Notes under the pieces: model-generated | Told to the model about the DNA's origin: nothing | Databases searched by the model: none | Seen by the model: the letters and a program-made list of their open reading frames with translations, nothing else | Position numbers and translations under genes: made by a program | Source of the DNA: Flavobacterium cauense R2A-7 | GTDB lineage: Bacteria; Bacteroidota; Bacteroidia; Flavobacteriales; Flavobacteriaceae | Direction: 5' to 3' | Assembly: GCF_000498475.1 (NCBI RefSeq) | Contig: NZ_AVBI01000024.1 | Location: 62,001 to 126,000, forward strand | Length of the DNA: 64,000 nt | Shown: positions 4,938-24,124 of the stretch, one piece after another | Layout: each line of letters opens with the position of its first letter | Numbering within the stretch: the stretch's first letter is position 1

Positions 4938-4940
4938 GAA

Positions 4941-8636: not shown

Positions 8637-8638
8637 AA

Positions 8639-9142: not shown

Positions 9143-9193
9143 AATTGTAGTAATTTAGTTTTTATTATCCGACTTAACGATAACCACCACCAC

Positions 9194-9697: not shown

Positions 9698-9698
9698 A

Positions 9699-10372: not shown

Positions 10373-10373
10373 G

Positions 10374-10703
10374 TTATGCTAAATTTTTAAACCATTTCTG
10401 GAAATGTTCTCCTAATAGCGGAATCACTTTCATTTCGCCCTGAACGGCTCCGAGAAATCCATAAATCCAAAGTACAAAAATGAACACATAGAAAGCCGAA
10501 GAAACCATCCAACTGTCGAAATAACCAATAAAATAGGCTAAAATGTAAAACGTGATGTTAATTCCGAAAGCCTGACGAATATGAAAACCCGCAAACGAAT
10601 TTTTAGGTTCCAGATTCATGAAAATAGCGATGATACTTCCTAAAATGGTGAAGTAACTTATAATCGCGGTCGTTTTTCCTTCTTGTACTGAATTGTTTTC
10701 CAT
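10374..10703 (-). CDS. Tic20/DUF4870-like small membrane protein
   Basis: A 109-residue protein with about four hydrophobic helices (near residues 13-30, 47-61, 66-80 and 82-92). FAGFHIRQAFGINIT and a final LLGEHFQKWFKNLA resemble the Tic20-like/DUF4870 family of small integral membrane proteins found across Bacteroidota. The name is by homology to a chloroplast import component; no import role is shown for bacterial members. It lies 9 bases downstream of the dihydroorotase-like gene and 1 base before the esterase gene, so they are likely co-expressed. Confidence 0.78.
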   Translation of the reverse strand: MENNSVQEGKTTAIISYFTILGSIIAIFMNLEPKNSFAGFHIRQAFGINITFYILAYFIGYFDSWMVSSAFYVFIFVLWIYGFLGAVQGEMKVIPLLGEHFQKWFKNLA

Positions 10704-10712
10704 GACGAAATT

Positions 10713-11966
10713 TTAGTTTAAAATCAATTGTCGGTTATTGTAAATGCCGTAAGCGTGTCCTTTCATCGGTTGCCCTAAAAATGCGGAGTTTTTCGATTTT
10801 GAAAGGATATTTTCTTTGCTGAATTCCCAGTTTCCTTCGGTTGTAAATAACGTTAATGAAGCGACATTTCCTTCTTTAATAGGTTGCTTTTCAATTCCGA
10901 AAACGTTCTTGCCATTGATTAATTTTTCAACGATAATTTCCGTTGGTAAAATCGTCTGCAAGGCACCAAAAGCACTTTCCAATCCGATAGTTCCGTTTTT
11001 AGCATTGTCGAATTCCATTTTCTTGTGTTCTACATCCAACGGATTATGATCGGAAGTAATGAAATCAATCGTTCCGTTCAAAACGCCTTCAATCAAAGCT
11101 TTTTTATGGTTTTCATCGCGTAAAGGCGGCGTAACTTTATATCTTGTGTCGAATCCCGTTAAAACTTCATCCGTCAAAACCAGATTATGAACCGCAACAC
11201 TGCAGGTTACGTTCAAGCCTTTAGCTTTGGCTTCTTGTATTAATTGTACTGATTTTGCTGTGGATATCGTAGGAATGTGCATTTTTCCACCGGTATATTC
11301 CAGTAAAAACAGGTTTCGTGCCACTTCTAATTCTTCAGCTAATGACGGGATGCCTTTCAAACCTAATTTTGTACTAACAATGCCTTCATGAACCACGCCG
11401 TTTCCTTTGATGGTTTTGTCCTGACAATACGCCAGTACCAATCCGTCAAAATCCTGAACATATTGCAATCCGATTTTCAACAGGTTAGCATTGTCGGAAT
11501 TTTTATTATAATCGCCAAAAGCAATCGCTCCGGCATTTTTCATATCAAACATTTCGGCTAAATCGTTGCCTTCGCTGTTTTTGGTGAACGCACCAATCGG
11601 GTGTAATTGCGTAGCAAATCCGTTCGCCTTATTCAATACAAAACTCACTTGCGACTGGTTGTCAATTACCGGAAGGGAATTCGGTTGCAAAGCCACATTG
11701 GTAAAACCACTTTTTGCCGCTGTTGTCAATCCGTTTGCAATGGTTTCGCGGTCTTCAAATCCGGGTTCGCCAAAAGAAACCGAAGCGTCAAACCAACCTT
11801 GTGAAACGTGAAGGTTTTCCAGTTCAACAACCTGAAGGTTTTCTTCGTTGGTAAGATTTTGACCAATTTTTGTTATGATGCCATCGATAATTTTAATGTC
11901 GGCTTTCTGGTTGTGAAAAGCACTTTCTTTATCGATAATAGTTGTGTTTTTTAAAATTACGTTCAT
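10713..11966 (-). CDS. Dihydroorotase homologue, probably catalytically inactive
   Basis: The 417-residue amidohydrolase follows the type I dihydroorotase pattern along its length, but by eye most zinc ligands are missing. The DxHxH motif reads D60-A-S-V-S, the His of the HAED motif is Y180 (LAYCQD), and the ligand His of the later HVST motif is T233 (MHIPTIST). D152 and D306 (SDHNP) are kept. Such proteins in other bacteria are non-catalytic partners of aspartate transcarbamoylase (pyrC-prime/PyrX type). Here the start overlaps the upstream BatA-like gene by 4 bases, which points to translational coupling outside a pyrimidine operon. Automatic annotation would call it pyrC; activity should not be assumed. 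Confidence 0.85.
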   Translation of the reverse strand: MNVILKNTTIIDKESAFHNQKADIKIIDGIITKIGQNLTNEENLQVVELENLHVSQGWFDASVSFGEPGFEDRETIANGLTTAAKSGFTNVALQPNSLPVIDNQSQVSFVLNKANGFATQLHPIGAFTKNSEGNDLAEMFDMKNAGAIAFGDYNKNSDNANLLKIGLQYVQDFDGLVLAYCQDKTIKGNGVVHEGIVSTKLGLKGIPSLAEELEVARNLFLLEYTGGKMHIPTISTAKSVQLIQEAKAKGLNVTCSVAVHNLVLTDEVLTGFDTRYKVTPPLRDENHKKALIEGVLNGTIDFITSDHNPLDVEHKKMEFDNAKNGTIGLESAFGALQTILPTEIIVEKLINGKNVFGIEKQPIKEGNVASLTLFTTEGNWEFSKENILSKSKNSAFLGQPMKGHAYGIYNNRQLILN

Positions 11967-13891
11967 TTTACGAATTTTTGGATCAGTAGTTCGAGTAATA
12001 AAAATAGTAGTGTTGCAATTATAAAATATTTCCAGATTTCGTTGCCGGTTCGTGTCGAATGGATATCGTTAAAAACCGCTTCCACCGAAGATACGGAAGT
12101 AAATTTATCAAATAGATTGTCGTTGATCAGGCTCAAATCGCTTTCGGTTCGGGCGTGATTGAAACTGATGTTTTTCAAAACTTCTTTGTTCTTCATCACC
12201 GAAAAATTACCCGATTGTTCCGGATAATCGCCAAAAGCCAATTTGATTTTATTGTTCAGAATCTGTTGCATCGGAATGAAATCGGAAGTTTCGTTGGTAA
12301 TGGTAACCACTTCGTCTTTTGACAGTAAAACATCCAAAACCAGATTTTGATTTTCTCCGATGGTATAGGCTGAAATTCCGGTTTTCTGATTGTTCTGTGC
12401 CATGTTGTAAAACGTCGGAACAATTAAAGGAGAATTCTGGAAGTTGCTATTGTTTTTATTTATCGGTGCCGAGAAAACATACAGATGTCCGATTTTGTTG
12501 GTTGTTGAACCCAAGAAAAAGGATTGGTCGGCATAATTTAAAACGCTAGCAATAGCGCCACTCGTGCTGAAAGCTGTACTGACTTTAGGATACTGGAAAT
12601 TATCGGTTTTCTTTTCAAAAACGGTTTGGTACAACGGGTGACTGAACGCAATTTTAGTAACCTGTTTTTCCTGATTTTGCAGGGAACCGAACTTGATTCC
12701 ACTAAAATTGTTTAAAAAGGAGTTCAGATTTTGCGCCGAACTTTCCGAAGACGGAATCAAAACTACATTGCCGCCTTTTTCATAAAACGCTTTCAGTGTG
12801 GTTGTTAAGGCTTGCGGAATGTCTTTGATTTCGTTCAGCACAATGGCGTCTTGTTTGTCGATTGCATTATAATCGACCGCATTTAATTCGGAACTCGTAT
12901 AGTTGAATTCGTCCGGAGTATAAATTCGAGATAAGAATTCGTTTTTCGGGTTTTCGCCGATGACGATCACATTCGACTTTTCCGGTTTGGAAATGCTGAA
13001 ATAATAAGTGTTATCGTAAGTCAGACTTTTATCTTCAATGGAAACATAGCCGTGAAAATCTTTTTTAGGTAGGGAAAACTGAACCGATTTTTTGTTGTTT
13101 TCCAATTTTACCACAGTTTTGGCGATTAGATTTTTACCGTTGTAAACCGACATGGGAATATCGTTTTCAATGGCTCCAAAACCGTTCACGTCGACTTTAA
13201 TTTCATAAAACGTTTCCGATTGACCGCTGATGGAAACTGCATCAATGCTTACATTGTTTTGGTTTTCGGCTTTCGGAATCCAATAATAAACTGGTGAATT
13301 TTCGTTTAGTTTTTCAAGACTTTTCGATTGCGCATTAACCGCATCGGTAATGATGAAAATGTCTTTCGGAGTATTGTGTTTTTTGGTTTCGATTTTGGTC
13401 AGCAGAAAATCCAACTGAAACGGTGTAGCACTGTATTGTAGGTTTTGCAGGTCTTTTTGAATCGATTTTATATCGGTATCCCAAAACGTTTCGGTATTGG
13501 TTACCAAAGAAAAACGTTGGTTTTCGGGAGTGTTTTCAAGTAATTCCTGTACCGCACGTTTTAACAATTCGCCACGGTTGCCTTTGGCCTGCATCGAAAA
13601 GGAATTGTCCAAAATAATGACCATTTCGTTGCCGCTGTTCTGACTGTCTTTGGCTTTAAAAAAAGGCTGTGCAAAGGCAATAATCAGACAGGCTAATAAA
13701 AGCAATCGGGTAGCCAGCAGTAACCATTTTTTGATTTTGGAACTCTTTCGGGTTTGAATGCTGAGTTCTTTCAGGAAGCGAACATTGGTGAAATATTCGG
13801 TCTTAAAACGTCGTAATTGAAATAAATGCACCAAAATTGGTATCACCAATAAAAAAAGGAAATACAGAATTTCGGGATGTTTGAATTGCAT
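11963..13891 (-). CDS. BatA-like protein with N-terminal double-TM and vWA-type domain
   Basis: The 642-residue protein begins with the BatA N-terminal double-transmembrane region (helices near residues 9-25 and 56-77; KHPEILYFLFLLVIPILVHL and LLLATRLLLLACLIIAF). It continues with a von Willebrand A-like domain whose MIDAS motif is DNSFSM (about residues 95-100). A long extracytoplasmic stretch and a final hydrophobic helix (IWKYFIIATLLFLLLELLI) follow. Family members are envelope proteins associated with aerotolerance or cell-envelope clusters, without a defined biochemical role. It is the first gene of a leftward operon with the dihydroorotase homologue (4-base overlap), Tic20-like protein and esterase. 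Confidence 0.85.
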   Translation of the reverse strand: MQFKHPEILYFLFLLVIPILVHLFQLRRFKTEYFTNVRFLKELSIQTRKSSKIKKWLLLATRLLLLACLIIAFAQPFFKAKDSQNSGNEMVIILDNSFSMQAKGNRGELLKRAVQELLENTPENQRFSLVTNTETFWDTDIKSIQKDLQNLQYSATPFQLDFLLTKIETKKHNTPKDIFIITDAVNAQSKSLEKLNENSPVYYWIPKAENQNNVSIDAVSISGQSETFYEIKVDVNGFGAIENDIPMSVYNGKNLIAKTVVKLENNKKSVQFSLPKKDFHGYVSIEDKSLTYDNTYYFSISKPEKSNVIVIGENPKNEFLSRIYTPDEFNYTSSELNAVDYNAIDKQDAIVLNEIKDIPQALTTTLKAFYEKGGNVVLIPSSESSAQNLNSFLNNFSGIKFGSLQNQEKQVTKIAFSHPLYQTVFEKKTDNFQYPKVSTAFSTSGAIASVLNYADQSFFLGSTTNKIGHLYVFSAPINKNNSNFQNSPLIVPTFYNMAQNNQKTGISAYTIGENQNLVLDVLLSKDEVVTITNETSDFIPMQQILNNKIKLAFGDYPEQSGNFSVMKNKEVLKNISFNHARTESDLSLINDNLFDKFTSVSSVEAVFNDIHSTRTGNEIWKYFIIATLLFLLLELLIQKFVK

Positions 13892-13927
13892 TTAGTTGTA
13901 AAGATTTTTCAAAGATAACTATTTTTA

Positions 13928-14055
13928 GTGTTCAGTATTCAGTATTCAGTGTTCAGAGTACAGTTTTTTTCTGATTACCGTCAACCTAATCACTGGCTAC
14001 TGTCTACTACTTTTTCTGCAATCTGCAATTTGCCAACTGATTACTGACTACTACC
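13928..14055. repeat. Degenerate short-period intergenic repeat tract
   Basis: The gap between the BatA-like gene and the helicase gene contains tandem-like words: TTCAGTATTCAGTATTCAG with TTCAG variants at 13928-13963, and CTGCAATCTGCAATTTGCCAACTGATTACTGACTACTACC at 14016-14055 (split here as CTGCAATCTGCAATTTGCC plus AACTGATTACTGACTACTACC). A related word, CTGCAATCTGCCAACT, lies at 6300-6315. No gene, terminator or RNA is recognised. Confidence 0.5.
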
Positions 14056-14057
14056 TA

Positions 14058-15404
14058 TTATTTCTTCTTTCTCTTAGCAGCACGTTTTCTTTCGACTTCT
14101 CTGTTTCTTGGTGCTGTTTTTCTTGGCTTAGTTTTTCCGGGACCACCAAGATTAACCTGTTTGTTTTTATCCGATTTTTCATGAAAAGCCGCGCCACCTT
14201 CCAGTTTGACTTTCTTCATCAGGAATTTGACTTTCTTCTTGTCTTTTTCAAATTCCAAACGTTTTTCTTCAATTTTTATACCTTCCGGCACCGGTAAGAT
14301 TTCGAGTTCTTTTTCCATTAAAAGTTCGGCTTCTACCTGGAATTCTTCTTCTGTCGGTGCAATTAAACTTATCGCGATTCCTTCTTTATCGGCACGACCG
14401 GTACGACCGATTCGGTGAATGTATTGTTCCGGAGTTTCCGAAAATTGCATGTTGATAACGTGTGTAATATCGGAAATATCCAAACCACGCGCCATGATAT
14501 CGGTAGTTACGATGCCGCGAATTTCTCCGGCCTGAAAACTGGCCATCGTATTCAAACGGTAATTTTGGGATTTATTGGAATGAATTACTCCGAATTGACC
14601 CGGGAAATCTTCTTCCAAAAGATCCATTAAAATGTCGGCAACTCTTTTGTTGTTGATGAAAATGAGGATGCGTTCCAAAGCTTCGTCCTGCGATAATAAA
14701 TGTTTTAAGACATTGACTTTCGTAAGGAAATTGGGAACGTGATACGCAAATTGCTGTATTTTTTCCAAAGGTGTTCCGGATTGTGCCAGCGAAACTTCTT
14801 CGGGAAAATCGAAATATTCGTCCAAAAGTTCGTCTACTTCATCGGTCATCGTGGCTGAAAACAGTATGTTTTGGCGTTTCGGACGCATCATTGAAAGGAT
14901 GGAAGTGATTTGGAATCGGAATCCTAAATTCAGAATTTCATCGAATTCGTCAATAACCAATTTCTGCATTTCGTCGAAACGAACTACGTTGTCTAACGCC
15001 AGGTCCATCATACGACCCGGAGTTCCCACTAATACGTCAACCCCTTGGTAAACCGATGTTTTTTGAGTATTGATGTTCACTCCACCGTACACTCCTAAAA
15101 CACGAACCGACATGTATTTGGTCAGTTTTTCGACTTCTTCAGCCACTTGAACCACCAATTCACGAGTGGGAACGATAATTACCACTTTTGGCGTGTGCGT
15201 TGGCGTGAACTTCCATTGTTTTAGGATAGGAAGCAGGTAAGCGTAGGTTTTACCCGTACCGGTTTGGGCAATTCCCATAACATCGCGTCCCGACATGATT
15301 ACCGGAAATGATTTCACCTGAATAGGCGTAGGCGTGGTTAAGCCCAAATCATAAATGGCTTTTTGTAAGGATTTCGGAAGATTGAATTGCTCAAAAGTAC
15401 TCAT
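14058..15404 (-). CDS. DEAD-box ATP-dependent RNA helicase (RhlE/SrmB-like)
   Basis: A 448-residue superfamily 2 RNA helicase, likely acting in ribosome assembly or mRNA turnover. Motifs in order: Q-motif region near FEQFNLPKSLQKAI, motif I AQTGTGKT, motif Ia PTRELV, motif II DEFD (a variant of DEAD), motif III SAT, motif V/VI region TDIMARGLDI and HRIGRTGR. The C-terminus is a highly basic tail (KPRKTAPRNREVERKRAAKRKKK, about 23 residues, quoted in part: KPRKTAPRNREVERKR) suited to RNA binding. It is transcribed alone. The exact subfamily is uncertain, so no symbol is given. Confidence 0.9.
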   Translation of the reverse strand: MSTFEQFNLPKSLQKAIYDLGLTTPTPIQVKSFPVIMSGRDVMGIAQTGTGKTYAYLLPILKQWKFTPTHTPKVVIIVPTRELVVQVAEEVEKLTKYMSVRVLGVYGGVNINTQKTSVYQGVDVLVGTPGRMMDLALDNVVRFDEMQKLVIDEFDEILNLGFRFQITSILSMMRPKRQNILFSATMTDEVDELLDEYFDFPEEVSLAQSGTPLEKIQQFAYHVPNFLTKVNVLKHLLSQDEALERILIFINNKRVADILMDLLEEDFPGQFGVIHSNKSQNYRLNTMASFQAGEIRGIVTTDIMARGLDISDITHVINMQFSETPEQYIHRIGRTGRADKEGIAISLIAPTEEEFQVEAELLMEKELEILPVPEGIKIEEKRLEFEKDKKKVKFLMKKVKLEGGAAFHEKSDKNKQVNLGGPGKTKPRKTAPRNREVERKRAAKRKKK

Positions 15405-15507
15405 AAAACGTATATTTTGTGCAAAGATACAATTTCTGAGTCAGTTATTGCTAATTGACTAATATCGATGTAATCAGTTAGTCTTCGGAAATAAGTGTAA
15501 AGTAGAA

Positions 15508-15879
15508 TTATACCAAATTCGTTTGCAATAAATGTTTTACTTTTTTAACTAATTCTGTCGGATCAAAAGGTTTAGCTATGAAATCGTCAACGCCTAAATT
15601 GGAAACTTCCACAACGGTTTGATCTTCTTTTCCCAACGAGGAAATCATGATTATTGGAATGTTCGGATAATTGGTTTTTGAAAACAGTGTAATTTCCAAA
15701 CCGGATTTGAAAGGCATCATAATATCCGAAATGATTAAATCGGGAAGTACCGTTTCTATTTTTTCGATTCCCTGAATCCCGTCTGTGGCGATATGGGTTT
15801 CAAATCCTTCCTTTTTCAGAAGAAAATCCAAAATATTGATGATAATCTTATCATCTTCAATAAGTAATATTTTTTTCAT
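15508..15879 (-). CDS. Stand-alone response regulator (receiver domain only)
   Basis: A 123-residue CheY-like receiver with no output domain. It has the acidic pair D9/D10, the phospho-acceptor D52 (IISDIMMPFKSG), the switch Ser S80 and K103 (FIAKPFDP). It lies 27 bases downstream of the YaiO-like gene and closes the glycosyltransferase operon. No histidine kinase is present in the window, so its partner is unknown. In context it most plausibly controls, by protein-protein contact, the polysaccharide machinery encoded upstream; this is inference. Confidence 0.88.
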   Translation of the reverse strand: MKKILLIEDDKIIINILDFLLKKEGFETHIATDGIQGIEKIETVLPDLIISDIMMPFKSGLEITLFSKTNYPNIPIIMISSLGKEDQTVVEVSNLGVDDFIAKPFDPTELVKKVKHLLQTNLV

Positions 15880-15906
15880 GCTTATGCGGTATTTAATTTT
15901 AGAGAT

Positions 15907-17157
15907 TTAAAATTTGTACTGAATTGAAAAAAACAAATCGAATTCGTTTTGAAAAGCATTTGGAGTGTATTCCTGACGGTTAACCATTCCTTGTAAACCC
16001 ACACAATAATGTTCCCATAACAGTTTGTAATATCCGGCTCCGATTCTGTAGGAACTTAAGGCAACTCTTTGTTGAAATTGTCCCAAAGTTACTCTTTCGT
16101 CTGGAGAAGTTCCATAACCGGCAATTACAGTTGCATAATCGTATTTGGTATCGAAATAATAGCGTGTCGTAGCGGTAAAAGCCGGATACATTTTACTGTT
16201 TTCCCATTGCCAATACGATTTCAGATTGAACCAATACGAACCAACATATTTCCCAATGCCTACTACTCCGGTTCCTAAATCTTTATCTACAGTTCTTGTA
16301 TAACGTACGCCTAAATCGCCTTCCCAGCTTTTTCCTAACGTGTGAAAAAAGGAATAAGCGGCGCGAAGTGTTGGAAAAACAGTATTGTCACCCAAAGCAA
16401 CATTGGCAAACGAATAACTTTTTTTGCCATGAGTGAAATAGGTTTCAAACTCCGATTGGAATCCCGAATTCACACTTTCCCCGAAATAACGACGATCAGC
16501 AAAGTTGACGCGGCCGATTAAGGTCAGCTTTTTTCGTTCTCGGATGTATTGTAATCCTATTAAATGCCACGGTCCAACGCCATTGCGACTGAAAGTGGTG
16601 AAATTGTAATTCAACCCGATGCGGTCGGAAACGGATTTCAGTTTTAATTCGGTTAGCTGATTTTGTAAATTTTTATCATCAGGAAATTTTTCGGCAACGG
16701 AATTCAGGTATTGGATGGATTTTTCATCGTCTTTTTCCAAAGCAATGGCATCCGATTTCAACAGATAGAATTCTTTTTCCTCCGGATAAAAAGTGATGGC
16801 TTTGTCTAAAACAACAATAGCATTGTTGCTGTTTTTTTCCTCGATTTCCAATTTCGAAAGATAACTGAACGCCTCTTTGTATTTTGGATTTTCGGTTATG
16901 ACATGATTGAAATAAAACCGCGCACTGTCTTTTTGTTGTGTCATCCAAAAGGCTCTTCCCAAAACCAGGTGAAAGTCTAAATAATTAGGCGCTTTTTTGA
17001 TGCCTAAACGCGACAACTCGATTGTTTTTGCGTAATTTTTATTGGTATTTAATTCGAATGCAGTTTTTACCAAAAGACTGTCTGTATCTATTTTTTGGGC
17101 TTGTAAACCGATTGAATATATAAGATTGAAAATTAGTATGAATACTACTTTTTTCAT
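15907..17157 (-). CDS. YaiO-like outer-membrane beta-barrel protein with TPR region
   Basis: A 416-residue protein with a signal peptide (first 20 residues, ending GLQAQ), a TPR-like helical region at about residues 25-165 (repeats around NYAKTIELSRLGIKKAP and DKAITFYPEEKEFYLL), and a C-terminal domain of about 240 residues. That domain has alternating aromatic strands and ends in FDLFFSIQYKF, a typical outer-membrane barrel terminus. The layout is that of YaiO and recalls PgaA (TPR plus porin) of poly-GlcNAc export. Its start overlaps the glycosyltransferase stop by 4 bases, so the two are coupled. The likely role is passage of polymer through the outer membrane (inference). Confidence 0.82.
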   Translation of the reverse strand: MKKVVFILIFNLIYSIGLQAQKIDTDSLLVKTAFELNTNKNYAKTIELSRLGIKKAPNYLDFHLVLGRAFWMTQQKDSARFYFNHVITENPKYKEAFSYLSKLEIEEKNSNNAIVVLDKAITFYPEEKEFYLLKSDAIALEKDDEKSIQYLNSVAEKFPDDKNLQNQLTELKLKSVSDRIGLNYNFTTFSRNGVGPWHLIGLQYIRERKKLTLIGRVNFADRRYFGESVNSGFQSEFETYFTHGKKSYSFANVALGDNTVFPTLRAAYSFFHTLGKSWEGDLGVRYTRTVDKDLGTGVVGIGKYVGSYWFNLKSYWQWENSKMYPAFTATTRYYFDTKYDYATVIAGYGTSPDERVTLGQFQQRVALSSYRIGAGYYKLLWEHYCVGLQGMVNRQEYTPNAFQNEFDLFFSIQYKF

Positions 17158-18587
17158 GGTTTCTGATTTGAATTAATAAATCCTTTGCGCGACATAACAC
17201 CCCATTTTTGTTCTTTTCTTCTCAGGAAATTCCAATATCCTTTTAAGGAAGCATACACGTTTAACGGATGGTAAATAAACGGTTCCAGAAACACCATTAC
17301 AATTAAGGTAAGCATTTCTTTAATGTTTGAATAATGCTGGTACACCAACTGATCCAAAAGCACTGATAATAATGTGATTGCGGTGTAAAACAAATAAATG
17401 AAAACGCTCACAATCAGTAAGAAATGGTAATTAATGTCGAAAAACAGTAAATCTAATACCAATACCGTAAGTCCGATAACCTCTAATATTGGAACGGCAA
17501 ATTCAAAGAATACAAAATAAGGAAAGGCGAGCAATCCGGTTTTGCCGTATTTCGGATTCAGAAAGACTTTTTTGTGTAAAGTTAGGGTCTGAATCAGTCC
17601 GCGCGCCCATCTTGTACGCTGTTTCATGAACAATTCCATGCTACTGGGAACTTCTGTCCAACACAAGGTCTCGGGAATGTATTTGATTAGGAAATTTTCC
17701 TTTTTCTCATGCATGTATTTTCGCATACGGGTAATCAGTTCGATATCTTCTCCCAACGATTTATGCCAATAACCACCTACTTTAATTACGGTTTCTTTGT
17801 CGAACATTCCGAGTCCGCCGGATACTAAAAGTAAGCTGTTCATTTTACTCCATGCCATTCTTCCGAAAATAAAGGCACGGATGTATTCCAATTCCTGAAA
17901 TCGTGCAAAAAAGTTATCCGGATAATGCGATTGGTACAATTCACCGTCTTTAAATTCACAAGAATTAGAAATTCGTATGGTGGCTCCGGTTGCGATAACT
18001 TTTTCGGTATTTTCAATGAAAGGTTTGGCTAAGATGGCGACCGCATCTTTTCGTAAAATACAATCCACATCGGTACAAAGGAAAAGCGAATATTTTGCAG
18101 AATTGATTCCGGCATTCGAAGCATCGGCTTTGCTGTTACCATTCACTTTATCGATAACCAATAATTTTGAATAGATAGGGTTGGTTGATTTATAATGTCC
18201 TCTAACGGGTTGTGTATGAATCTTTTCCTGATAAAAAAAGTCGACTTTCACCAGGCTGAATTCGGAAATAAGCAAATCTAAAGAGTTGTCTGTACTGCCA
18301 TCGTTAATGATAATGACTTCGAATTTCGGGTATTCCTGTGACAATAAGGATTTTACGTTGTAAACAATTGTTGCCGATTCATTAAAAGCCGGTGCAATGA
18401 TGGAAACGCCAACCGTATGGTTCGATTTCACCAATACGCCTTTGTGCAGATAATATTTTGAATTGTAATATTTCTTAATCGCTAAATACGACAATAGTGC
18501 CAAAAGCAAATACAAAATCACATAGCTTATCGAATAATAAGCCGCAAAAGTTTCGTAATGTTTTATAAAAAATTCTAACGTTTTCAA
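17154..18587 (-). CDS. Processive-type GT2 glycosyltransferase, membrane-bound
   Basis: A 477-residue inner-membrane family 2 glycosyltransferase. After an N-terminal helix (about 20-37) the GT-A domain shows the nucleotide-sugar Asp motif NDGSTD (95-100), DVD (173-175), GED (279-281) and QRTRW (323-327), the D,D,D,QxxRW set of processive enzymes such as PgaC, hyaluronan synthase and cellulose synthase. Several helices follow from about 352 to 440. It overlaps both neighbours by 4 bases (HEAT-repeat protein upstream, YaiO-like protein downstream). It probably polymerises and extrudes a polysaccharide; the sugar is unknown. No deacetylase (PgaB-like) is encoded beside it. Confidence 0.88.
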   Translation of the reverse strand: MKTLEFFIKHYETFAAYYSISYVILYLLLALLSYLAIKKYYNSKYYLHKGVLVKSNHTVGVSIIAPAFNESATIVYNVKSLLSQEYPKFEVIIINDGSTDNSLDLLISEFSLVKVDFFYQEKIHTQPVRGHYKSTNPIYSKLLVIDKVNGNSKADASNAGINSAKYSLFLCTDVDCILRKDAVAILAKPFIENTEKVIATGATIRISNSCEFKDGELYQSHYPDNFFARFQELEYIRAFIFGRMAWSKMNSLLLVSGGLGMFDKETVIKVGGYWHKSLGEDIELITRMRKYMHEKKENFLIKYIPETLCWTEVPSSMELFMKQRTRWARGLIQTLTLHKKVFLNPKYGKTGLLAFPYFVFFEFAVPILEVIGLTVLVLDLLFFDINYHFLLIVSVFIYLFYTAITLLSVLLDQLVYQHYSNIKEMLTLIVMVFLEPFIYHPLNVYASLKGYWNFLRRKEQKWGVMSRKGFINSNQKP

Positions 18588-19798
18588 TTCAGATAGGGAT
18601 TAGTAACGTGTAACACGATCTTTTTAATGGTATTGTTTTCAGTTTCATTTTCTGCGGTAAAATTGTCAAAATAAGTTTTGTCAATTTTATTGATGCAGTT
18701 TACGATTTCGAATTTGATTTCCAGATCGTTTTCCGAGGTTAAAATTTCAGTGGCGAATTGCAGCGTTTTAGTATTTCCGATGATTCCCAGCGTTTTTAAA
18801 CAGGAAATCCGGTTTCGTTTGTTGCTTTCTGTTGGATAATGATCAATCAGTGTTTCGTTGGCTTCACGCAATTCCAGTTCTCTGATGGCCAATAAGGTTT
18901 CTTTACGAACCAGAACATCGTTGTTTTGTAAAAGATGATTTATTTGAGTAATGGTCAGTTGTTCTTTATATCGAATTATAAGTTTCAACGCCAGAATTAC
19001 GATGGAATTGTTTTCGTGGTAAATCCATTTCACGATATTTTCGGGAAGTTTGGATTTTTTCTGATAAATGATATCCAGAATTTTTAGTTCGTCGGCTCTT
19101 GAAATTTTTTCGGTGTAATTGTCCAAAACACCGAATTTTTCATCGGATAACGCAATGGTAGCAATTAAAGCGTTCGAACGTAGGTATTTATTTTTATGAT
19201 GTAAAAAGGATTTGAGCTGTCCTTTTTTAATTTTATAATCTAAAACCTGATAATGGTATATGCCCAGCGATTTGAAATACCATCTTCGGTCATTGATTAA
19301 ACGCTGACTGTAACTTTGCAAGCCAAAATATTTGTAAACTAATAAAATCTGATTCTGATCGAAACCGTGAATGTTTTGTTTGAAATGGATTAGTTTATTA
19401 AGGATTACATAACGGCACCATTTTTCGTCGTATGGGATTTGGGTTTTGAAATCGGCTATTTTTTCCTTCATTTCTTTTCCGCTGTAACTGGAGAAAATAA
19501 TTTCAGTTAAAAAATCATTTACTAAAGTGTCGATTTCTCTTTTTTTAAGTGCTAATTGTTCATGTTTATAGCGGTTGATAACCAATGAGAAAACCAGTAG
19601 TGTAATAAATAATACAAAAAGCGGAATTACTATGAATTTCAAAACACTTACTATGAATTCGGGGGAAAATGAAGTGTCCGATAAAGTAGGTATAAGATTG
19701 TTAAAATAATCGAATTCTGACAGAGAATTTAAATTCCCGATTTCACGAATCAGATTTCGGGTTTCATCTTTAGATAAGACTAAAAAAGGATTAATCAT
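18584..19798 (-). CDS. HEAT-repeat membrane protein
   Basis: A 404-residue protein with a single transmembrane helix at about residues 52-72 (FIVIPLFVLFITLLVFSLVI), preceded by a short N-terminal part and followed by a long cytoplasmic-type region of alpha-helical repeats. Repeats such as KNKYLRSNALIATIALSDE, NSIVILALKLIIRYKE and NDVLVRKETLLAIRELEL have the HEAT pattern. It is the first gene of the operon and overlaps the glycosyltransferase start by 4 bases. A scaffold or regulatory partner for the synthase is likely, but no biochemical role is established. Confidence 0.75.
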   Translation of the reverse strand: MINPFLVLSKDETRNLIREIGNLNSLSEFDYFNNLIPTLSDTSFSPEFIVSVLKFIVIPLFVLFITLLVFSLVINRYKHEQLALKKREIDTLVNDFLTEIIFSSYSGKEMKEKIADFKTQIPYDEKWCRYVILNKLIHFKQNIHGFDQNQILLVYKYFGLQSYSQRLINDRRWYFKSLGIYHYQVLDYKIKKGQLKSFLHHKNKYLRSNALIATIALSDEKFGVLDNYTEKISRADELKILDIIYQKKSKLPENIVKWIYHENNSIVILALKLIIRYKEQLTITQINHLLQNNDVLVRKETLLAIRELELREANETLIDHYPTESNKRNRISCLKTLGIIGNTKTLQFATEILTSENDLEIKFEIVNCINKIDKTYFDNFTAENETENNTIKKIVLHVTNPYLN

Positions 19799-19931
19799 AA
19801 AAAATTATCACAATGTCAAGGTTATTTAGGTTTTTATATAACAGATTTGGGGGAATCCTTGAATAAAAATCAAAATTTCGCTCAAATATAGATAAAAAAT
19901 TGGTTAATAGTTAGTTGAATGTTTTAATTGA

Positions 19932-20696
19932 TTAAAATTCTTCAAAAACACCTAATCCAAATAAGGCAAAGTCGTATTTTACCGGGTCGTTTGCATCTAA
20001 TAAACGAAGGTTTGTATCCAATTCAAATAACGCTTTGGCATCGTTTTGTTTTCGGGTAAGCAATTCCAGTTTTCGGGCTACGTTTCCGGAATGCACATCT
20101 AAAGGGCAGGAAAGTGTTGCCGGAGAAATACTTTTCCAAATTCCCAAATCCACGCCTTTGTTGTCTTGGCGGCACATCCATCGCAGGTACATATTGATGC
20201 GTTTGGCTGCCGAACCGTTCATTGGATCGGAAATGTGTTTTTCTGTTCGGGGTAAATGGTTGATTTCAAAAAAGGTTTTCTTAAACTCCGAAATACTTTT
20301 CTGCATGGAATTCGGTTCCTGATGGGCTCCAAATACGGCTTCAAGTCCGTTATGATTTTGGTAAATGTGTTGCAGACTTTTAATAAATCCAACGAAATCC
20401 TGACTGTTGAAGGTGCGGTGTACAAAAGTAGAAAAGCGTTCCAAATCATCCTCGTTATGCGACATGATGAAATCGTATGGTGCATTTCCCATCAAATCCA
20501 TCATTTTTTTAGCGTTGTTGATAATCATTTTGCGGTTTCCCCATGCAATGGTGGCAGCTAGAAAACCGGCAATCTCAATATCTTCTTTTTGCGTAAAAAG
20601 ATGCGGAATCTGTATCGGATCACTTTCGATAAAATCCGGACGGTTGTATACTTCGACTTTTTCGTCGAGAAAAGACTTTAACTCGGAAATATCCAT
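19932..20696 (-). CDS. TIGR02757/DUF2400 family protein
   Basis: A 254-residue protein matching the conserved TIGR02757 family: DPIQIPHLFTQKEDIEIAGFLAATIAWGNR near the N-terminus (given in part: IEIAGFLAATIAWGNR), RWMCRQDNKGVDLGIW in the middle and CPLDVHSGNVARKLELL near residue 215. No signal or membrane segment. Biochemical function is not established. The PLDxHxxxxxRK element resembles the VDTHxxR element of helix-hairpin-helix glycosylases, but that is a by-eye likeness only. It follows the LolD-like ATPase gene immediately (stop and start adjacent), so they are co-transcribed. Confidence 0.85.
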   Translation of the reverse strand: MDISELKSFLDEKVEVYNRPDFIESDPIQIPHLFTQKEDIEIAGFLAATIAWGNRKMIINNAKKMMDLMGNAPYDFIMSHNEDDLERFSTFVHRTFNSQDFVGFIKSLQHIYQNHNGLEAVFGAHQEPNSMQKSISEFKKTFFEINHLPRTEKHISDPMNGSAAKRINMYLRWMCRQDNKGVDLGIWKSISPATLSCPLDVHSGNVARKLELLTRKQNDAKALFELDTNLRLLDANDPVKYDFALFGLGVFEEF

Positions 20697-21374
20697 TTAA
20701 TTTTTCACTACTTCGTTTCGGATATCGCCATCCACCATAATCAGTTTTCGGTCGGCCATATTTGCTAAGTCTTCATTGTGGGTCACAATTACAAAAGTCT
20801 GCCCGAATTCGTCACGAAGTTTAAAGAATAATTGGTGTAAATTTTCGGCAGAATGGGTGTCGAGATTCCCGGAAGGCTCATCGGCAAAAATAACAGCCGG
20901 TTTGTTGATTAATGCTCTGGCAACCGCAACACGTTGTTGTTCCCCGCCGGAAAGTTCTCCCGGTTTATGATCGTAACGATGTGATAATCCCAAATAATCC
21001 AATAGTTTTTTGGCTTCTTCTTCGGTTTCCTTTTTGTCTTTTCCTGCTATGAAAGCGGGAATGCAAACATTCTCCAACGCTGTAAATTCAGGTAAAAGCT
21101 GATGAAACTGAAAAATGAATCCCAATTGTAAATTTCGGAATCGGGATAAAGCTTTGTCATTCATTTTTAAGACATCTTCGCCATTAATTACCAAAGAAGA
21201 ATTTTTCTCTGTAGTTGGTTTGTCCAGCGTTCCCATAATTTGCAAAAGAGTTGTTTTTCCGGCACCGGAAGCACCAACGATAGAAACGATTTCTCCTTTT
21301 TGGATATGAAGGTTTACACCTTTTAAAACATGAAGTTTGTCGAAATATTTATGAATGTTGTTAGCCTTAATCAT
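20697..21374 (-). CDS. ABC transporter ATP-binding protein, LolD/MacB-like
   Basis: A 225-residue ABC ATPase. Walker A is GASGAGKTT (about 34-42), the Q-loop region [18 protein letters not shown] is diagnostic of the LolD/MacB/FtsE branch, the signature is [15 protein letters not shown], Walker B is [12 protein letters not shown] and the switch His is in VTHNEDLA. It would energise a FtsX-like permease for lipoprotein release or efflux, but no permease gene is adjacent; the partner must be elsewhere. It is the first gene of a two-gene unit with the TIGR02757 gene. Confidence 0.9.
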
Positions 21375-21493
21375 GGTATTCGTTTTGACAAAGAAACAAA
21401 TTAAATGATGAAAAATTAAATCTCATAGAGCATAAAATACGTATGTAAAGTAATAAAGTTTCGTTAAAGAAAAATTAGTGTTTAATTATTTGG

Positions 21494-21501
21494 TATATTT
21501 G
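21494..21501 (+). promoter_or_regulatory. Putative msrA -7 promoter element
   Basis: TATATTTG matches TAnnTTTG and ends 18 bases before the chosen msrA start. No clear -33 TTTG is seen. Confidence 0.4.
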
Positions 21502-21519
21502 TTAAACAAAATAAAGGTT

Positions 21520-22164
21520 ATGAAAAATTTATTTATATGTTGTTTAGCCCTCATTACTTTTGCGTGTGAAGGCAAAGAAAATAAAAGCAAAGCCGGTATG
21601 GAAACAGAAAAAAAAGTTACAGAAGATCAGAATTTAGAAAAAGCTACGTTTGCCGGAGGTTGTTTTTGGTGTACAGAAGCATTGTTTTTAGAAATAAAAG
21701 GGGTGGAGAAAGTTCTTCCGGGTTACACTGGAGGTAAAGTTAAGAATCCAACCTACGAAGAGGTGTGCGAGGGAACAACCGGTCATGCCGAGGCTATCGA
21801 AATTACCTATAATCCGGAGTTGATTTCCTATGAGGATTTGCTGGAAGTGTTTTTCGGAACACACGATCCAACAACTTTAAACCGTCAGGGAGCCGACGTG
21901 GGAACGCAATACCGCAGTGAAATTTTTTACCATTCAGAAGCACAGAAAAAAGCGGCTGAAAACTTTATCAGTCTGTTGAATACACAAAATATTTACGGAA
22001 AAAAAGTAGTTACAAAGATTTCTCCTGCCGTGACGTTTTATGTTGCTGAAGACTATCATAAGAATTATTACAACCGAAATAAAAATCAGGGCTATTGTAT
22101 GGCGGTTATCGCTCCTAAATTGGATAAATTGAAAAAGAACTACAAATCGAAACTTAAAAACTAA
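21520..22164 (+). CDS. msrA: Peptide-methionine (S)-S-oxide reductase MsrA, probable lipoprotein
   Basis: MsrA repairs S-form methionine sulfoxide in proteins. The 214-residue protein has the active site GGCFWC (C48 nucleophile, C51) and the conserved GYTGG, EVCEGTTGHAE and DPTTLNRQGADVGTQYRS blocks. A GYC motif near the C-terminus can supply a resolving Cys. The N-terminus MKNLFICCLALITFAC is a lipoprotein-like signal with the modified Cys at 16, so the enzyme is probably periplasmic and membrane-tethered. The start at 21520 is preferred over an upstream Met (21478) because the signal peptide begins there and a -7 element precedes it. folE follows after 20 bases. Confidence 0.93.
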   Translation: MKNLFICCLALITFACEGKENKSKAGMETEKKVTEDQNLEKATFAGGCFWCTEALFLEIKGVEKVLPGYTGGKVKNPTYEEVCEGTTGHAEAIEITYNPELISYEDLLEVFFGTHDPTTLNRQGADVGTQYRSEIFYHSEAQKKAAENFISLLNTQNIYGKKVVTKISPAVTFYVAEDYHKNYYNRNKNQGYCMAVIAPKLDKLKKNYKSKLKN

Positions 22165-22184
22165 TCCTAAAAAGCACTTCTTTC

Positions 22185-22856
22185 ATGGAAAACGTAACAG
22201 AAAAAGAACTTTTTGAAATCATAGGTGACGATCATCAGATGACTTCTATAGAAACACCACTTCGACCCGATGCATTTTTGAAATCCGACGAAGAGAAAAT
22301 GGTTGTGATTGAACAGCATTTTAAAGCAATTATGGAAGAGTTGGGTTTGGATTTAACCGATGACAGTTTGAAGGGAACACCACATCGGGTAGCGAAAATG
22401 TATGTTCAGGAAATATTCAGTGGTCTGCATCCGGACAACCGACCAAAGATTTCGGTTTTCGAAAACAGTTACAATTATGACAAAATGCTGGTAGAGGCAA
22501 ACATTAATTTTAATTCTACTTGCGAACATCATTTTTTACCCATTATCGGTAAAGCGCACATAGCTTATGTGTCTGGCGGAAAAGTGATAGGGCTGTCGAA
22601 ATTAAACCGTATCGTGGATTACTTTGCACGTCGCCCGCAGGTACAGGAGCGCATGACTGTTCAGATCTATAATGAATTATGTGATGTTTTAAATACCGAG
22701 GATGTGATAGTGGTTCTTGAAGCTACTCATCTTTGTGTCTCAAGTCGCGGCATCAAAGATGCGTCCAGTTATACAACGACTTTACAATATGGAGGCGTTT
22801 TTGAAGAAAAGGAAATGCGGAACGATTTTTTTAATTTATTGAAGAAAGAGCAATAA
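22185..22856 (+). CDS. folE: GTP cyclohydrolase I
   Basis: FolE converts GTP to 7,8-dihydroneopterin triphosphate, the first step of folate and pterin synthesis. The 223-residue protein has GTPHRVAKMYVQEIFSGL, the zinc/catalytic motif CEHHFLP, GLSKLNRIVDYFARRPQVQERMT (in part: GLSKLNRIVDYFARR) and the second zinc Cys in ATHLCVSSRGI. About 40 extra N-terminal residues precede the catalytic domain. It lies 20 bases downstream of msrA. Cytoplasmic. Length and motifs are normal for the family. Confidence 0.95.
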   Translation: MENVTEKELFEIIGDDHQMTSIETPLRPDAFLKSDEEKMVVIEQHFKAIMEELGLDLTDDSLKGTPHRVAKMYVQEIFSGLHPDNRPKISVFENSYNYDKMLVEANINFNSTCEHHFLPIIGKAHIAYVSGGKVIGLSKLNRIVDYFARRPQVQERMTVQIYNELCDVLNTEDVIVVLEATHLCVSSRGIKDASSYTTTLQYGGVFEEKEMRNDFFNLLKKEQ

Positions 22857-22898
22857 TTGGCATTGATTTTGAGGTCATTGTGATACTAAATACAAATA

Positions 22899-23204
22899 AT
22901 GATGTCACAAGAGATAGTGGTACAAACTTCAAAATCCAATAAAACAAAGCACTTGATTTTAAGTCTGCTTTTTGATGCCATTGGCTATGTCTCTTACGGC
23001 ATTCCGTTTGTGGCAGAACTAACCGATATAGTGTGGGCGCCAATAGCGGGTTTTCTTCTTGCGCGAATGTATAAAGGTACGGTGGGAACTGTGGGTGGAA
23101 TAACGGTTTTTGTGGAAGAATTGCTTCCCGGACTCGATTTTATTCCAACGTTTACACTTACGTGGGTGTATACTTATTTGATAAAGAAAGAGAATACAAT
23201 ATAG
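22899..23204 (+). CDS. Small conserved membrane protein of unknown function
   Basis: A 101-residue protein with two or three hydrophobic segments (about residues 21-40, 46-56 and 64-95), including DAIGYVSYGIPFVAELTDIVWAP (given in part: YVSYGIPFVAELTDIVWAP) and FVEELLPGLDFIPTFTLTWVY. I know such proteins as conserved hypotheticals in Flavobacterium. Two adjacent Met codons (22899, 22902) are both possible starts. It follows folE by 42 bases in the same direction and ends just before a terminator. Function is unknown. Confidence 0.75.
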   Translation: MMSQEIVVQTSKSNKTKHLILSLLFDAIGYVSYGIPFVAELTDIVWAPIAGFLLARMYKGTVGTVGGITVFVEELLPGLDFIPTFTLTWVYTYLIKKENTI

Positions 23205-23211
23205 AAGACAG

Positions 23212-23242
23212 AAAAGGGGTTTATAGTTTAAACTCCTTTTTT
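23212..23242 (+). terminator. Rho-independent terminator overlapping the end of a convergent gene
   Basis: AAAAGGGGTTTA (23212-23223) pairs with TAAACTCCTTTT (23229-23240), with one G-U pair, and is followed by T residues. It covers the stop codon of the convergent DUF6787 gene. Confidence 0.7.
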
Positions 23243-23554
23243 ATTTCCGAATAAATCGGCAATAAATCCCAATTTCATGCCGCGAAGCATCTTGAAAACA
23301 AAGTTTTTAAAGAAGGTATGTTGCCCAAAAATAGTACCGATAGTTACCAAAAGCACTTTGTAAACAGGAAGGATAATCAAAATATAAAGGATCCAGTATA
23401 AAACAGGATGTAAATTGTCTTTTGTAATACCAAGCCAAGCCAAAATGGGCTTTGAAAGATAAGAAGCGGTAGTTCCGGTAATGGCAAAAACGACAAAAAT
23501 AATTGCCATCTGCCAATTGCTTTTAATATTCCAGCGCTCTTTTAAATTTGACAT
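23228..23554 (-). CDS. DUF6787-like small membrane protein
   Basis: A 108-residue protein with two transmembrane helices (about 15-35 and 49-71), opening LKERWNIKSNWQMAIIFVVFA and ending with a basic, Gly-rich tail (MLRGMKLGFIADLFGNKKG). This pattern is the flavobacterial DUF6787 family, as I recall it; the function is unknown. It lies 28 bases downstream of the DUF6146-like lipoprotein gene and is probably co-transcribed with it. Confidence 0.72.
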   Translation of the reverse strand: MSNLKERWNIKSNWQMAIIFVVFAITGTTASYLSKPILAWLGITKDNLHPVLYWILYILIILPVYKVLLVTIGTIFGQHTFFKNFVFKMLRGMKLGFIADLFGNKKGV

Positions 23555-23582
23555 TTTTTTGAAATATGGTCAAAAATACAAA

Positions 23583-24020
23583 TTATGGACGAGGCGTAAA
23601 ACCTCCAAGGCGAATATTATTTTTTATTTGAAAATATACCAGATAATTATAAATCAAGTAATTTACTTCATAGCCATAATTGATCCCGTTTTGGTAATTT
23701 ACCTCCATTTGAAATAAATCCCTGTCCCGACTGTTTTTTGGGGAACGGGCACGGTTATTCCATTCGATTATCCAGGGAATATTGCGGCTTTCCAGATGAG
23801 CTTGTGTGTAAAAACCTCGTGGTCTGGCTGTAGATTGTAACCACGAATTGAAACCCGGATCTATAATTGTTACTTCGTAATCCAGTTCTTTATTGACAAT
23901 GCGAACCGTATCGTTCAAAGCTTTAACAGAACTGTTATCGCTAATGGGTTTTGTACTGGAATCACAACCGAAAAGCAACGCCATAAAAAGAAAAATTACT
24001 AAAAGAACACCGTTTTTCAT
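23583..24020 (-). CDS. DUF6146-like lipoprotein
   Basis: A 145-residue protein with a lipoprotein signal (hydrophobic core followed by LLFGC, Cys19). The mature part contains DYEVTIIDPGFNSWL, RPRGFYTQAHLESRNIPWI and EVNYLIYNYLVYF, which I associate with the DUF6146 family of Flavobacteriia. Probably periplasmic or outer-membrane anchored. No function is known. Expressed leftward with the DUF6787-like gene. Confidence 0.75.
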   Translation of the reverse strand: MKNGVLLVIFLFMALLFGCDSSTKPISDNSSVKALNDTVRIVNKELDYEVTIIDPGFNSWLQSTARPRGFYTQAHLESRNIPWIIEWNNRARSPKNSRDRDLFQMEVNYQNGINYGYEVNYLIYNYLVYFQIKNNIRLGGFTPRP

Positions 24021-24080
24021 CGTAATGGGTTTTCTATAAAGTTACTGAAATTCATTTAAAATAAAACGCTATTTAACAAA

Positions 24081-24112
24081 AAAGCCAAACATTGGTTTGC
24101 TTGGCTTTCTAA
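24081..24112 (-). terminator. Terminator downstream of the DUF937 gene
   Basis: AAAGCCAA (24081-24088) pairs with TTGGCTTT (24101-24108); on the reverse strand a T-run follows. It lies between the DUF937 stop and the start of the next leftward gene. Confidence 0.65.
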
Positions 24113-24124
24113 ATTATCTTGGCT

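Follow-up and report, generated by a model that had tools for sequence, protein, structure and literature searches.

The switches known for synthase-type polymers are mainly c-di-GMP receptors. In the Pga/Hms system (PgaABCD), the PgaCD pair binds c-di-GMP, and in the Bcs cellulose system BcsG decorates cellulose. Synthase-dependent exopolysaccharide systems have three core parts and exporter barrels of 16-18 strands, according to PMC9601211, and the TPR part of PgaA is described as binding the polymer in PMC9384988. For type IX secretion, PMC5005315 reports that PorX binds directly to the membrane machine and not to the promoters tested. Among the open-access papers listed in literature searches, judged by their titles and the opening lines of their abstracts, none describes a HEAT-GT2-receiver or HEAT-GT2-YaiO unit, in agreement with the initial annotation, which knew of no characterised system of such composition. 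The main text of PMC7112194 does not contain 'Bacteroid', 'Flavobacter', 'HEAT', 'receiver', 'response regulator' or 'sulfatase', and the sole HEAT passage of PMC12419801 concerns beta-catenin.

We analysed a 64,000-nucleotide stretch of Flavobacterium cauense R2A-7 DNA (the window), in which four open reading frames (ORFs) on the minus strand at 15508-19798 had been annotated as a candidate exopolysaccharide synthesis and export system. All four were found at these coordinates. They encode a HEAT-repeat adaptor (18584..19798, 404 aa), a GT2 polysaccharide synthase (17154..18587, 477 aa, TTG start), a YaiO-family outer-membrane protein (15907..17157, 416 aa) and a stand-alone CheY-like receiver (15508..15879, 123 aa). 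The earlier description of three genes overlapping by 4 bases is correct if taken as two overlaps among three genes: one joins the HEAT stop to the GT2 start (18584-18587, minus strand), where translational coupling is likely, and the other joins the GT2 stop to the YaiO start (17154-17157, minus strand). The receiver follows the YaiO gene after 27 bases. A weak candidate -7 element, TATATTTG, lies 5' of the operon on the minus strand (19883..19890); it matches what we take to be the Bacteroidota consensus, and TTG is absent from the 30 bases ahead of it. With 48 such words on the minus strand of the window, the chance of one in the 133-base gap is about one in ten, and the word was set aside as too common to serve as evidence. 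With a probability of about 0.6, we read the cluster as polysaccharide secretion machinery of the synthase type, built around a two-component control core; what the initial annotation observed was borne out, and its interpretation was supported in part.

The HEAT protein matched HEAT_2 (PF13646, 1.3e-7, Pfam) and has a single strong hydrophobic stretch at residues 56-74, as expected of the membrane protein first described. Its AlphaFold2 model (pLDDT 85.6) shows a helix at 46-102 followed by repeats up to residue 399. We read it as an adaptor with one membrane helix (~56-74) and an alpha-solenoid that is probably cytoplasmic. Foldseek and VIA-align comparisons returned generic HEAT/ARM proteins (best Z 14.1), which is within what repeats give by default; a known fold identity beyond a generic repeat solenoid was rejected.

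The GT2 protein matched Glycos_transf_2 (PF00535, 2.9e-19) and PF13641 (8.3e-15) in Pfam. The annotated motifs DxD, GED and QRTRW are present (D96, D173-V-D175, G279-E280-D281, Q323-RTRW), and taken column by column 102 to 111 of 111 aligned sequences retain their residues, with the Q and W of QxxRW in every one; the tree and the motif counts exclude L100 (broken GT2, HEAT not found) and L035, whose GT2 is split over two ORFs. Together with a single N-terminal hydrophobic stretch and several at the C-terminal end, these motifs point to the inner-membrane synthase of a synthase-dependent exopolysaccharide system. The best NCBIfam model was the PNAG synthase PgaC_IcaA (1.2e-36). At 126.5 bits versus a cut-off of 422.3, and 30 versus 699.1 bits for CelA, the protein falls well short of the thresholds set for the polymer synthase models that it matches.

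The YaiO protein exceeded the curated cut-offs of PF19413 (141.6 versus 23.9 bits, 3.3e-41) and TIGR04390 (81.5 versus 32). It has a signal-peptide-like start, TPR helices (TPR_19, 1.6e-7), which supply the periplasmic TPR part of synthase-dependent exopolysaccharide systems, and a C-terminal beta-barrel, so that the annotation as a TPR plus beta-barrel outer-membrane protein agrees with both profiles and model. The model (pLDDT 89.0, pTM 0.63) places nine helices at residues 25-173 after the signal-peptide helix, and a barrel of 14 strands; a further one or two could have been missed near residues 351-370, where pLDDT falls to 72-77. This is below the 16-18 strands of known synthase-dependent exporters given in PMC9601211. 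The best Foldseek match was BcsC (9b8a, 3.8e-10); with a TM of 0.46 and an rmsd of 10.2 the two superpose loosely, general porins score close behind, and BcsC is absent from the best 50 VIA-align matches listed.

Whether the genes form a conserved unit was determined by a neighbourhood survey across the phylum, in which 70 of 296 genomes carry this GT2. We read 76 loci from 78 places; the other two, without a locus of their own, are the window itself and one of two places in G142, which lies within L103. Immediately 5' of GT2, 75 of the 76 survey loci and 36/36 close loci have a homologous HEAT gene. Within reach of GT2, a receiver was found in 60 of the 76 (absent in 16) and a YaiO barrel in 49 (absent in 27), on the strand of GT2 in only 33 of these 49. 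In comparison, the outer neighbours of the window were rarely kept (DUF2400 4/76, DEAD helicase 6/76, ABC 9/76; HEAT scores 72/76 under the same BLAST clustering). The HEAT and GT2 ORFs overlap in 92/111 loci, by exactly 4 bases in 52/111, lengths that may be inflated because each start was taken as the first start codon. The adjacency of HEAT and GT2 is far beyond chance. The proposed unit is kept. Judged from gene neighbourhoods, its conserved core is receiver-HEAT-GT2, which is more widespread than the four-gene form of the window, with the barrel as the optional part.

The same survey bears on a reading without any exported polymer, in which GT2 modifies lipids or the envelope non-processively and YaiO serves as a general porin or envelope protein. 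Ten of the 76 loci have a receiver and neither a barrel nor an LtaS-type or DUF4838 gene in reach, and both the low GT2 scores against polymer synthase models and the near-equal porin matches would suit it. Against this stand the invariant Q and W of QxxRW, the PNAG synthase as best NCBIfam model, the adjoining of YaiO to GT2 in many families and the polymer-type neighbours, and we regard this reading as quite unlikely. In one of those ten loci, L067, a piece of YaiO lies at the contig end, just below threshold.

Stand-alone receivers often have distant targets, and this one could act by way of partner proteins on expression or some other process, lying in the operon merely for co-expression. 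In most close loci it does lie away from HEAT, at the end of the operon. Among same-strand receivers shorter than 160 aa, however, 50 ORFs lie within 3 kb 5' of GT2, 2 at 3-9 kb 5' (a zone to which only 55-72 of the 76 loci extend) and 6 on the 3' side, and the receiver stays beside HEAT-GT2 across phyla and in archaea despite shifting position and neighbours. We consider mere co-expression improbable, the least likely of the readings weighed here.

The window receiver is a single REC domain (PF00072, 3.9e-24, residues 4-115 of 123) with an intact phosphorylation site (D9, D10, D52, S80, K103) and no output domain detected by Pfam, as the term stand-alone receiver implied. Among 94 aligned receivers, each the best-scoring one within 6.5 kb of its locus and perhaps not the HEAT-adjacent one, the phospho-Asp position holds Asp in 71, Thr in 14 and A, S, E or N in 9. 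The receiver of an Emticicia plasmid has Asn there, in a plasmid site alignment that omits the receiver of Halosolutus and, for Devosia, the one nearest HEAT. A kinase lies directly 5' of the receiver in 17/76 survey loci, and 16 of the 17 are hybrid. All 11 hybrid kinases scanned (L056, L059, L063, L115 and L120 were left out) match HisKA, HATPase, REC and Hpt, with Hpt over the Pfam cut-off in 8; such kinases beside the receiver imply a phosphorelay that needs a downstream receiver. As for a cognate kinase in the source genome, one hybrid kinase had ten matches there (best 1.9e-79), so that several are candidates and no single one was picked.

The proposed phosphorylation switch fits most receivers and the adjoining hybrid kinases, and sits badly with one Flavobacterium clade. 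By alignment, this clade has Thr for phospho-Asp, so phosphorylation at that site cannot be needed there, yet its receiver gene is under constraint: eight T-type receivers gave a median dN/dS of 0.073 over 28 pairs versus 0.061 for GT2, rough figures owing to many synonymous changes. The clade counts against a plain phosphorylation switch. It favours a receiver that serves as a structural or localisation subunit, bridging HEAT and GT2 or marking a cell site regardless of phosphorylation, as do the loss of Asp in 15 of 33 close-set receivers (13 T, 1 S, 1 A) and a one-sequence search that found no adjoining kinase in the 36 close loci. Against this, the window receiver and 52 of 60 survey receivers retain the Asp, and the 17 loci above have an adjoining kinase; we find a purely structural role rather unlikely, although the most credible of the alternatives. 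In one relative family (4/4 loci) a REC-GGDEF-REC protein contains the receiver, so c-di-GMP is not alien to every system of this kind. In the four window proteins Pfam found no c-di-GMP receptor, as annotated.

Beyond the phylum, a search covering plasmids (hits H4 and H5, of the same species as H3, were left out) recovered the receiver-HEAT-GT2 core in Mesorhizobium, Erythrobacter, Devosia and three haloarchaea, the latter also on plasmids. HEAT-GT2 was kept in 12 of 13 plasmid loci read, including Alphaproteobacteria. Among these 12, a YaiO or TPR gene adjoins HEAT-GT2 in 7/7 outer-membrane organisms and in 0/5 archaea and Bacillota. In Halosolutus, GlmS and an archaeal GlmU-like gene lie directly 3' of GT2.

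The note of a missing deacetylase also held for the window: no deacetylase or glycoside hydrolase family (Pfam) was found in the four genes or in ten neighbours scanned at 9722-24676, a scan that left out three ORFs of 101-109 aa. Relatives do carry candidates for polymer modification, namely an LtaS-type transferase, which adjoins GT2 or, in two or more cases, is fused to it, or else a DUF4838 protein in the cluster. The cluster of the window has neither; the source genome has two LtaS-type matches elsewhere, outside the window, and no DUF4838 was found in it. C/SxPxR is the sulfatase motif. Because it is missing from 27 of 28 PF00884 domains near these GT2s, the one match looking like chance, sulfatases were rejected and the domains are read as LtaS/OpgB-type transferases. 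A sulfatase profile with TPRs over-called (15/36 close loci); the domain-only profile matched 1/36, L010, in a neighbouring second cluster.

The preferred reading of a polysaccharide secretion machine under two-component control draws on the conserved unit amid variable flanks, the crowding of short receivers 5' of GT2, the adjoining hybrid kinases, the receiver's lack of an output domain, the recurrence of the core outside the phylum, the YaiO or TPR genes of the outer-membrane organisms, BcsC as best Foldseek match, the DxD and QxxRW motifs and the polymer-type neighbours. Asp loss, loci without receiver or barrel, the 14 strands, the loose BcsC fit, the generic HEAT folds and the close loci in which no kinase was found beside the receiver count against it. 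In such a machine, GT2 would take a cytoplasmic nucleotide sugar, at a guess an amino sugar such as UDP-GlcNAc, add it processively to a growing polymer and move that polymer across the inner membrane; YaiO would guide the polymer through the periplasm with its TPR part and release it through its barrel. The HEAT protein would be anchored next to the synthase, its solenoid holding the synthase, the receiver or both. A hybrid-kinase phosphorelay, encoded elsewhere in the source genome, would feed the receiver, which may switch the synthase on or off by direct binding through the HEAT adaptor and not by gene regulation.

Recurrence of the core in distant bacteria and haloarchaea suggests a widespread and apparently undescribed direct two-component control of polymers. 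Somewhat short of even odds, we give a broader proposal: receiver-HEAT-GT2 may be an ancient portable control module of bacteria and archaea, by which histidine-kinase phosphorelays directly switch synthases post-translationally through a membrane-anchored HEAT adaptor, to which outer-membrane hosts add a YaiO/TPR exit and some lineages a phospho-group transferase or DUF4838, and whose switch one Flavobacterium clade froze as a receiver lacking the phospho-Asp. If so, Bacteroidota, rhizobia and haloarchaea would have a way to link a signal directly to a surface polymer. The natural Asp-to-Thr clade and its Asp-bearing sisters offer a sharp test of the switch, and the GT2-LtaS-type fusions are flagged as candidates for polymers bearing phospho-groups.

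Among known systems, yaiS-yaiP-yaiX-yaiO of E. coli K-12, the only one of 14 control genomes with PF19413, likewise clusters a YaiO barrel with a GT2 (YaiP). Unlike the window, it includes genes for a putative deacetylase and for an IS2-interrupted putative acyltransferase (yaiX), has no annotated HEAT or receiver gene, and its YaiP lacks QxxRW, with a match to the GT2 profile of only 6.7e-8. The parallel drawn with Pga holds in function and not in family: the window GT2 is nearest in NCBIfam to PgaC/IcaA, and both have TPRs with an outer-membrane barrel, whereas the missed PgaC_IcaA cut-off (126.5 versus 422.3 bits) and the lack of a PgaB-type deacetylase/hydrolase among the neighbours scanned led us to reject membership, and HEAT and receiver stand where Pga has its c-di-GMP-bound PgaCD pair. 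With Bcs the locus shares BcsC as best Foldseek match of the modelled YaiO, and the LtaS/OpgB-type domain fused to GT2 in relatives may resemble BcsG in role; membership was rejected on the missing PilZ (Pfam) and the missed CelA cut-off (30 versus 699.1 bits), and the barrel is modelled with 14 strands. PorX-PorL likewise has a CheY-like Bacteroidota regulator acting on a membrane machine; that machine is a motor for protein secretion rather than a glycan synthase, and to our knowledge the system includes neither a HEAT adaptor nor a GT2. If the broader proposal is true, the receiver-HEAT-GT2 module would be the two-component counterpart to c-di-GMP/PilZ control.

The four genes lie on the minus strand where the initial annotation had placed them, and a family scan backed each name: a HEAT-repeat protein (18584-19798; HEAT_2, 1.3e-7), a GT2 glycosyltransferase (17154-18587; Glycos_transf_2, 2.9e-19), a YaiO-like protein (15907-17157; YaiO, 3.3e-41, plus TPRs), and a receiver (15508-15879; Response_reg, 3.9e-24). 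The reported overlaps of 4 bases were present between HEAT and GT2 and between GT2 and YaiO, but YaiO and the receiver are 27 bases apart. Ten neighbours between 9722 and 24676 belong to unrelated Pfam families (helicase, BatA, DUF2400, ABC protein, Msr, GTP cyclohydrolase, and others) or, in two cases, gave no match at 1e-5. A scan of genome contigs, which also supplied 36 closely related loci, identified the GT2 of Flavobacterium limnosediminis as the nearest to that of the window (91%).

The initial annotation had proposed a neighbourhood survey as a check on the four-gene unit. We surveyed 296 Bacteroidota genomes of at least 90% completeness, counting GT2 at E <= 1e-60, and found it in 70 genomes at 78 places; 76 survey loci were read, covering every place except the window itself. 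HEAT homologues were called by iterating a HEAT-protein HMM over the full set of 3,420 ORFs in the loci. HEAT was located directly 5' of GT2 in all 36 close loci and in 75 of the 76 survey loci, where the sole other match was the HEAT gene of a neighbouring tandem cluster in locus L103. In the close loci, the HMM also matched a pair of ORFs lying 3' of the L027 receiver and, in L028, the front piece of a HEAT gene that is split. Of 111 loci, 92 have overlapping HEAT and GT2 ORFs, and in 52 the overlap is exactly 4 bases. A same-strand receiver was present within 6.5 kb in 33/36 close loci and in reach in 60/76 survey loci; in 56 of these 60 it lay in proteins of under 160 to 240 aa, every such locus having one or more below 160 aa, and in 4 inside a longer protein. 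Counting receivers under 160 aa on the GT2 strand gave 50 within 3 kb upstream of GT2, 2 between 3 and 9 kb upstream, and 6 downstream. YaiO was found within 6.5 kb in 34/36 close loci and in reach in 49/76 survey loci, on the GT2 strand in 33. As a control, homologues of the window's outer neighbours were sought as BLAST clusters within four genes of GT2. DUF2400, DEAD helicase and ABC protein genes, present in 26, 27 and 24 of the 36 close loci, respectively, remained in only 4, 6 and 9 of the 76 survey loci, compared with 72 for HEAT by the same clustering. The survey thus speaks for a conserved unit. Within the genus, 60 of 120 Flavobacterium genomes carry GT2, which is therefore common but not universal.

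Several loci depart from this pattern. L103 holds two complete, different tandem clusters (4237-17568), receiver-HEAT-GT2-LtaS type-YaiO and HEAT-GT2-YaiO-DUF4838-receiver. L008 and L020 are without YaiO, keeping HEAT, GT2, receiver, and DUF4838, the last at another place. Split or shortened genes, each in a single genome, affect GT2 (L035, L100, L130), HEAT (L028), and YaiO (L027), and look like decay or sequencing error. The two additional HEAT-profile ORFs of L027 (11389-12413) are possibly a second, broken HEAT copy. A protein of 928-930 aa is encoded between the DUF2400 gene and HEAT in L014 (1787-4579) and L016 (1794-4580).

A tblastn search with GT2 (E <= 1e-30) retrieved 15 plasmid records, of which 13 were read; the two left out come from a species already represented. 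HEAT was directly 5' of GT2 in 12 of 13 by annotation or profile. Some profile matches were weak (Halosolutus 8.6e-4, Deinococcus 2.4e-6, Planococcus 3.5e-7) and may owe part of their score to generic HEAT repeats; Pfam HEAT_2 was above cut-off in all eight plasmid HEAT proteins scanned. The locus without HEAT encodes a fusion of another kind (27.6% identity), a protein of Prevotella nigrescens in which GH18, polysaccharide deacetylase, and GT2 domains are combined (L135:3664-7071). A receiver precedes in seven loci, those of Emticicia, Mesorhizobium, Erythrobacter, Devosia, and the haloarchaea Haloarcula, Halosolutus, and Salinirubellus. The Mesorhizobium order is ATP-binding protein-receiver-receiver-YaiO-HEAT-GT2, and an Hpt gene lies opposite. 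A YaiO or TPR gene accompanies HEAT-GT2 in 7/7 organisms with an outer membrane, among which Deinococcus is counted, and in 0/5 archaea and Bacillota; the Deinococcus gene and two others of the seven are TPR proteins by annotation. Therefore, we can conclude that the core is receiver-HEAT-GT2, and that the barrel goes with the outer membrane. On the Planococcus plasmid (L133), the annotated neighbours of HEAT-GT2 include CotH kinase family, DUF4956, and polyphosphate polymerase domain genes, and a Qat anti-phage gene is close by.

The GT2 of the window has D96, D173xD175, GED (279-281), and QRTRW (323-327), the motif set of processive GT2s. D96, D173, D281, Q323, and W327 were invariant in 111 of 111 aligned sequences, and D175 (110), E280 and R326 (105 each), and G279 (102) nearly so. 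Its hydrophobic stretches, one N-terminal and several C-terminal, would fit a synthase that also translocates. The HEAT model (pLDDT 85.6) shows one membrane helix and then a solenoid, which matched generic HEAT/ARM scaffolds only and is probably cytoplasmic, because positive residues follow the helix. The AlphaFold2 model of YaiO (13 sequences; pLDDT 89.0, pTM 0.63) has a signal-peptide helix, nine helices forming about four TPRs, and 14 strands. Its best solved Foldseek match was E. coli BcsC, the cellulose exporter (3.8e-10; 548 columns, TM 0.46, rmsd 10.2), followed by OmpG and other porins, with the 'polysaccharide outer membrane secretin' 4y25, which we take to be PgaA, at rank 33. VIA-align matched the barrel to channels, for example TodX, OmpG, and CymA (Z 18.5-20.3), BcsC being absent among the 50 matches listed.

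In 17 of 76 survey loci, a kinase gene sits immediately 5' of the receiver, and 16 of these kinases are hybrid; the 11 hybrids scanned all match HisKA, HATPase, REC, and Hpt, the last above cut-off in 8. Relays of such make-up end on a separate receiver. A Pfam scan found no output domain in the receiver, which would act on the synthase through HEAT. Binding of a CheY-like protein to a membrane machine is already described in the phylum for PorX-PorL (PMC5005315). The phosphorylation switch initially proposed agrees with these kinases and with the phospho-Asp, which the window's receiver keeps as D52 and which 71 of 94 receivers have (survey 52/60, close only 18/33), as do six of seven aligned plasmid receivers (Asn in that of Emticicia). 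Against it, Thr replaces Asp in 14 of the 94 (Glu in 6; Ala, Ser, and Asn in one each); all 15 losses of the close set are in loci with DUF4838. Eight Thr-type receivers remain strongly constrained, with a median dN/dS of 0.073 over 28 pairs, compared with 0.061 for GT2; the ratio is rough given the many synonymous changes. Thr-type receivers thus do without phosphorylation on that residue, a point in favour of a physical role that makes a pure switch less likely. One family, with four loci (L084:6667-8454, L086:6907-8532, L087:6633-8195, L088:6895-8535), has its receiver 5' of HEAT-GT2 within a REC-GGDEF-REC protein, in which the best-scoring REC carries Glu instead of the Asp; this protein ties the core to c-di-GMP there.

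Relatives carry additional parts. Near GT2, 27/76 survey loci encode an LtaS/OpgB-type domain (PF00884); it shares the GT2 strand or is fused in 20, and 9 have it joined to the GT2 C-terminus. This fusion needs at least two changes on the GT2 tree, a quick tree with some forks open. As these domains lack the sulfatase motif, they could plausibly transfer a phosphoglycerol or phosphoethanolamine group to the polymer. DUF4838 (PF16126, 2e-89), in a protein also matching GH20 domain 2 below cut-off, occurs in 23/36 close and 8/76 survey loci, and was not found in the window's genome. The window's cluster, missing both parts, is therefore a minimal form. A conserved family of 383-396 aa (L081:13048-14217, minus strand), hydrophobic in one N-terminal stretch and bearing an 'IDKT'-like motif, occurs in clusters with GT2 and LtaS-type genes, with homologues in L048, L052, L053, L066, L085, L111, L113, and L117; the one member scanned had no Pfam or NCBIfam match. 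Neighbours may give thin hints to the polymer's sugar: 3' of GT2 in Halosolutus, GlmS (705 vs cut-off 418) and an archaeal GlmU-like gene (259 bits, below cut-off 292.1); in Legionella adelaidensis, a nucleotide sugar dehydrogenase (304.9 vs 189.8) and two epimerase/dehydratase family genes, below all model cut-offs.

A full-text search of the open-access literature found no description of the unit, in keeping with the initial view that no characterised system has exactly this composition. The parallel then drawn with Pga holds insofar as the cluster appears to work like a synthase-dependent system. Membership in Pga was ruled out, the GT2 scoring 126.5 vs 422.3 bits and no PgaB-type neighbour being found among those scanned (9722-24676), which also upholds the reported absence of a deacetylase. 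Membership in Bcs was likewise excluded by the lack of PilZ in the four proteins and a GT2 score of 30 vs 699.1 bits. The 16-18-stranded barrel is the single described trait of synthase-dependent systems that the analysis did not confirm: the YaiO model shows 14 strands, and one or two may be missing from it where pLDDT falls to 72-77, around residues 351-370. E. coli yaiS-P-X-O also pairs YaiO with a GT2 but, unlike the window's cluster, is without HEAT and receiver. The control core may be new in itself.
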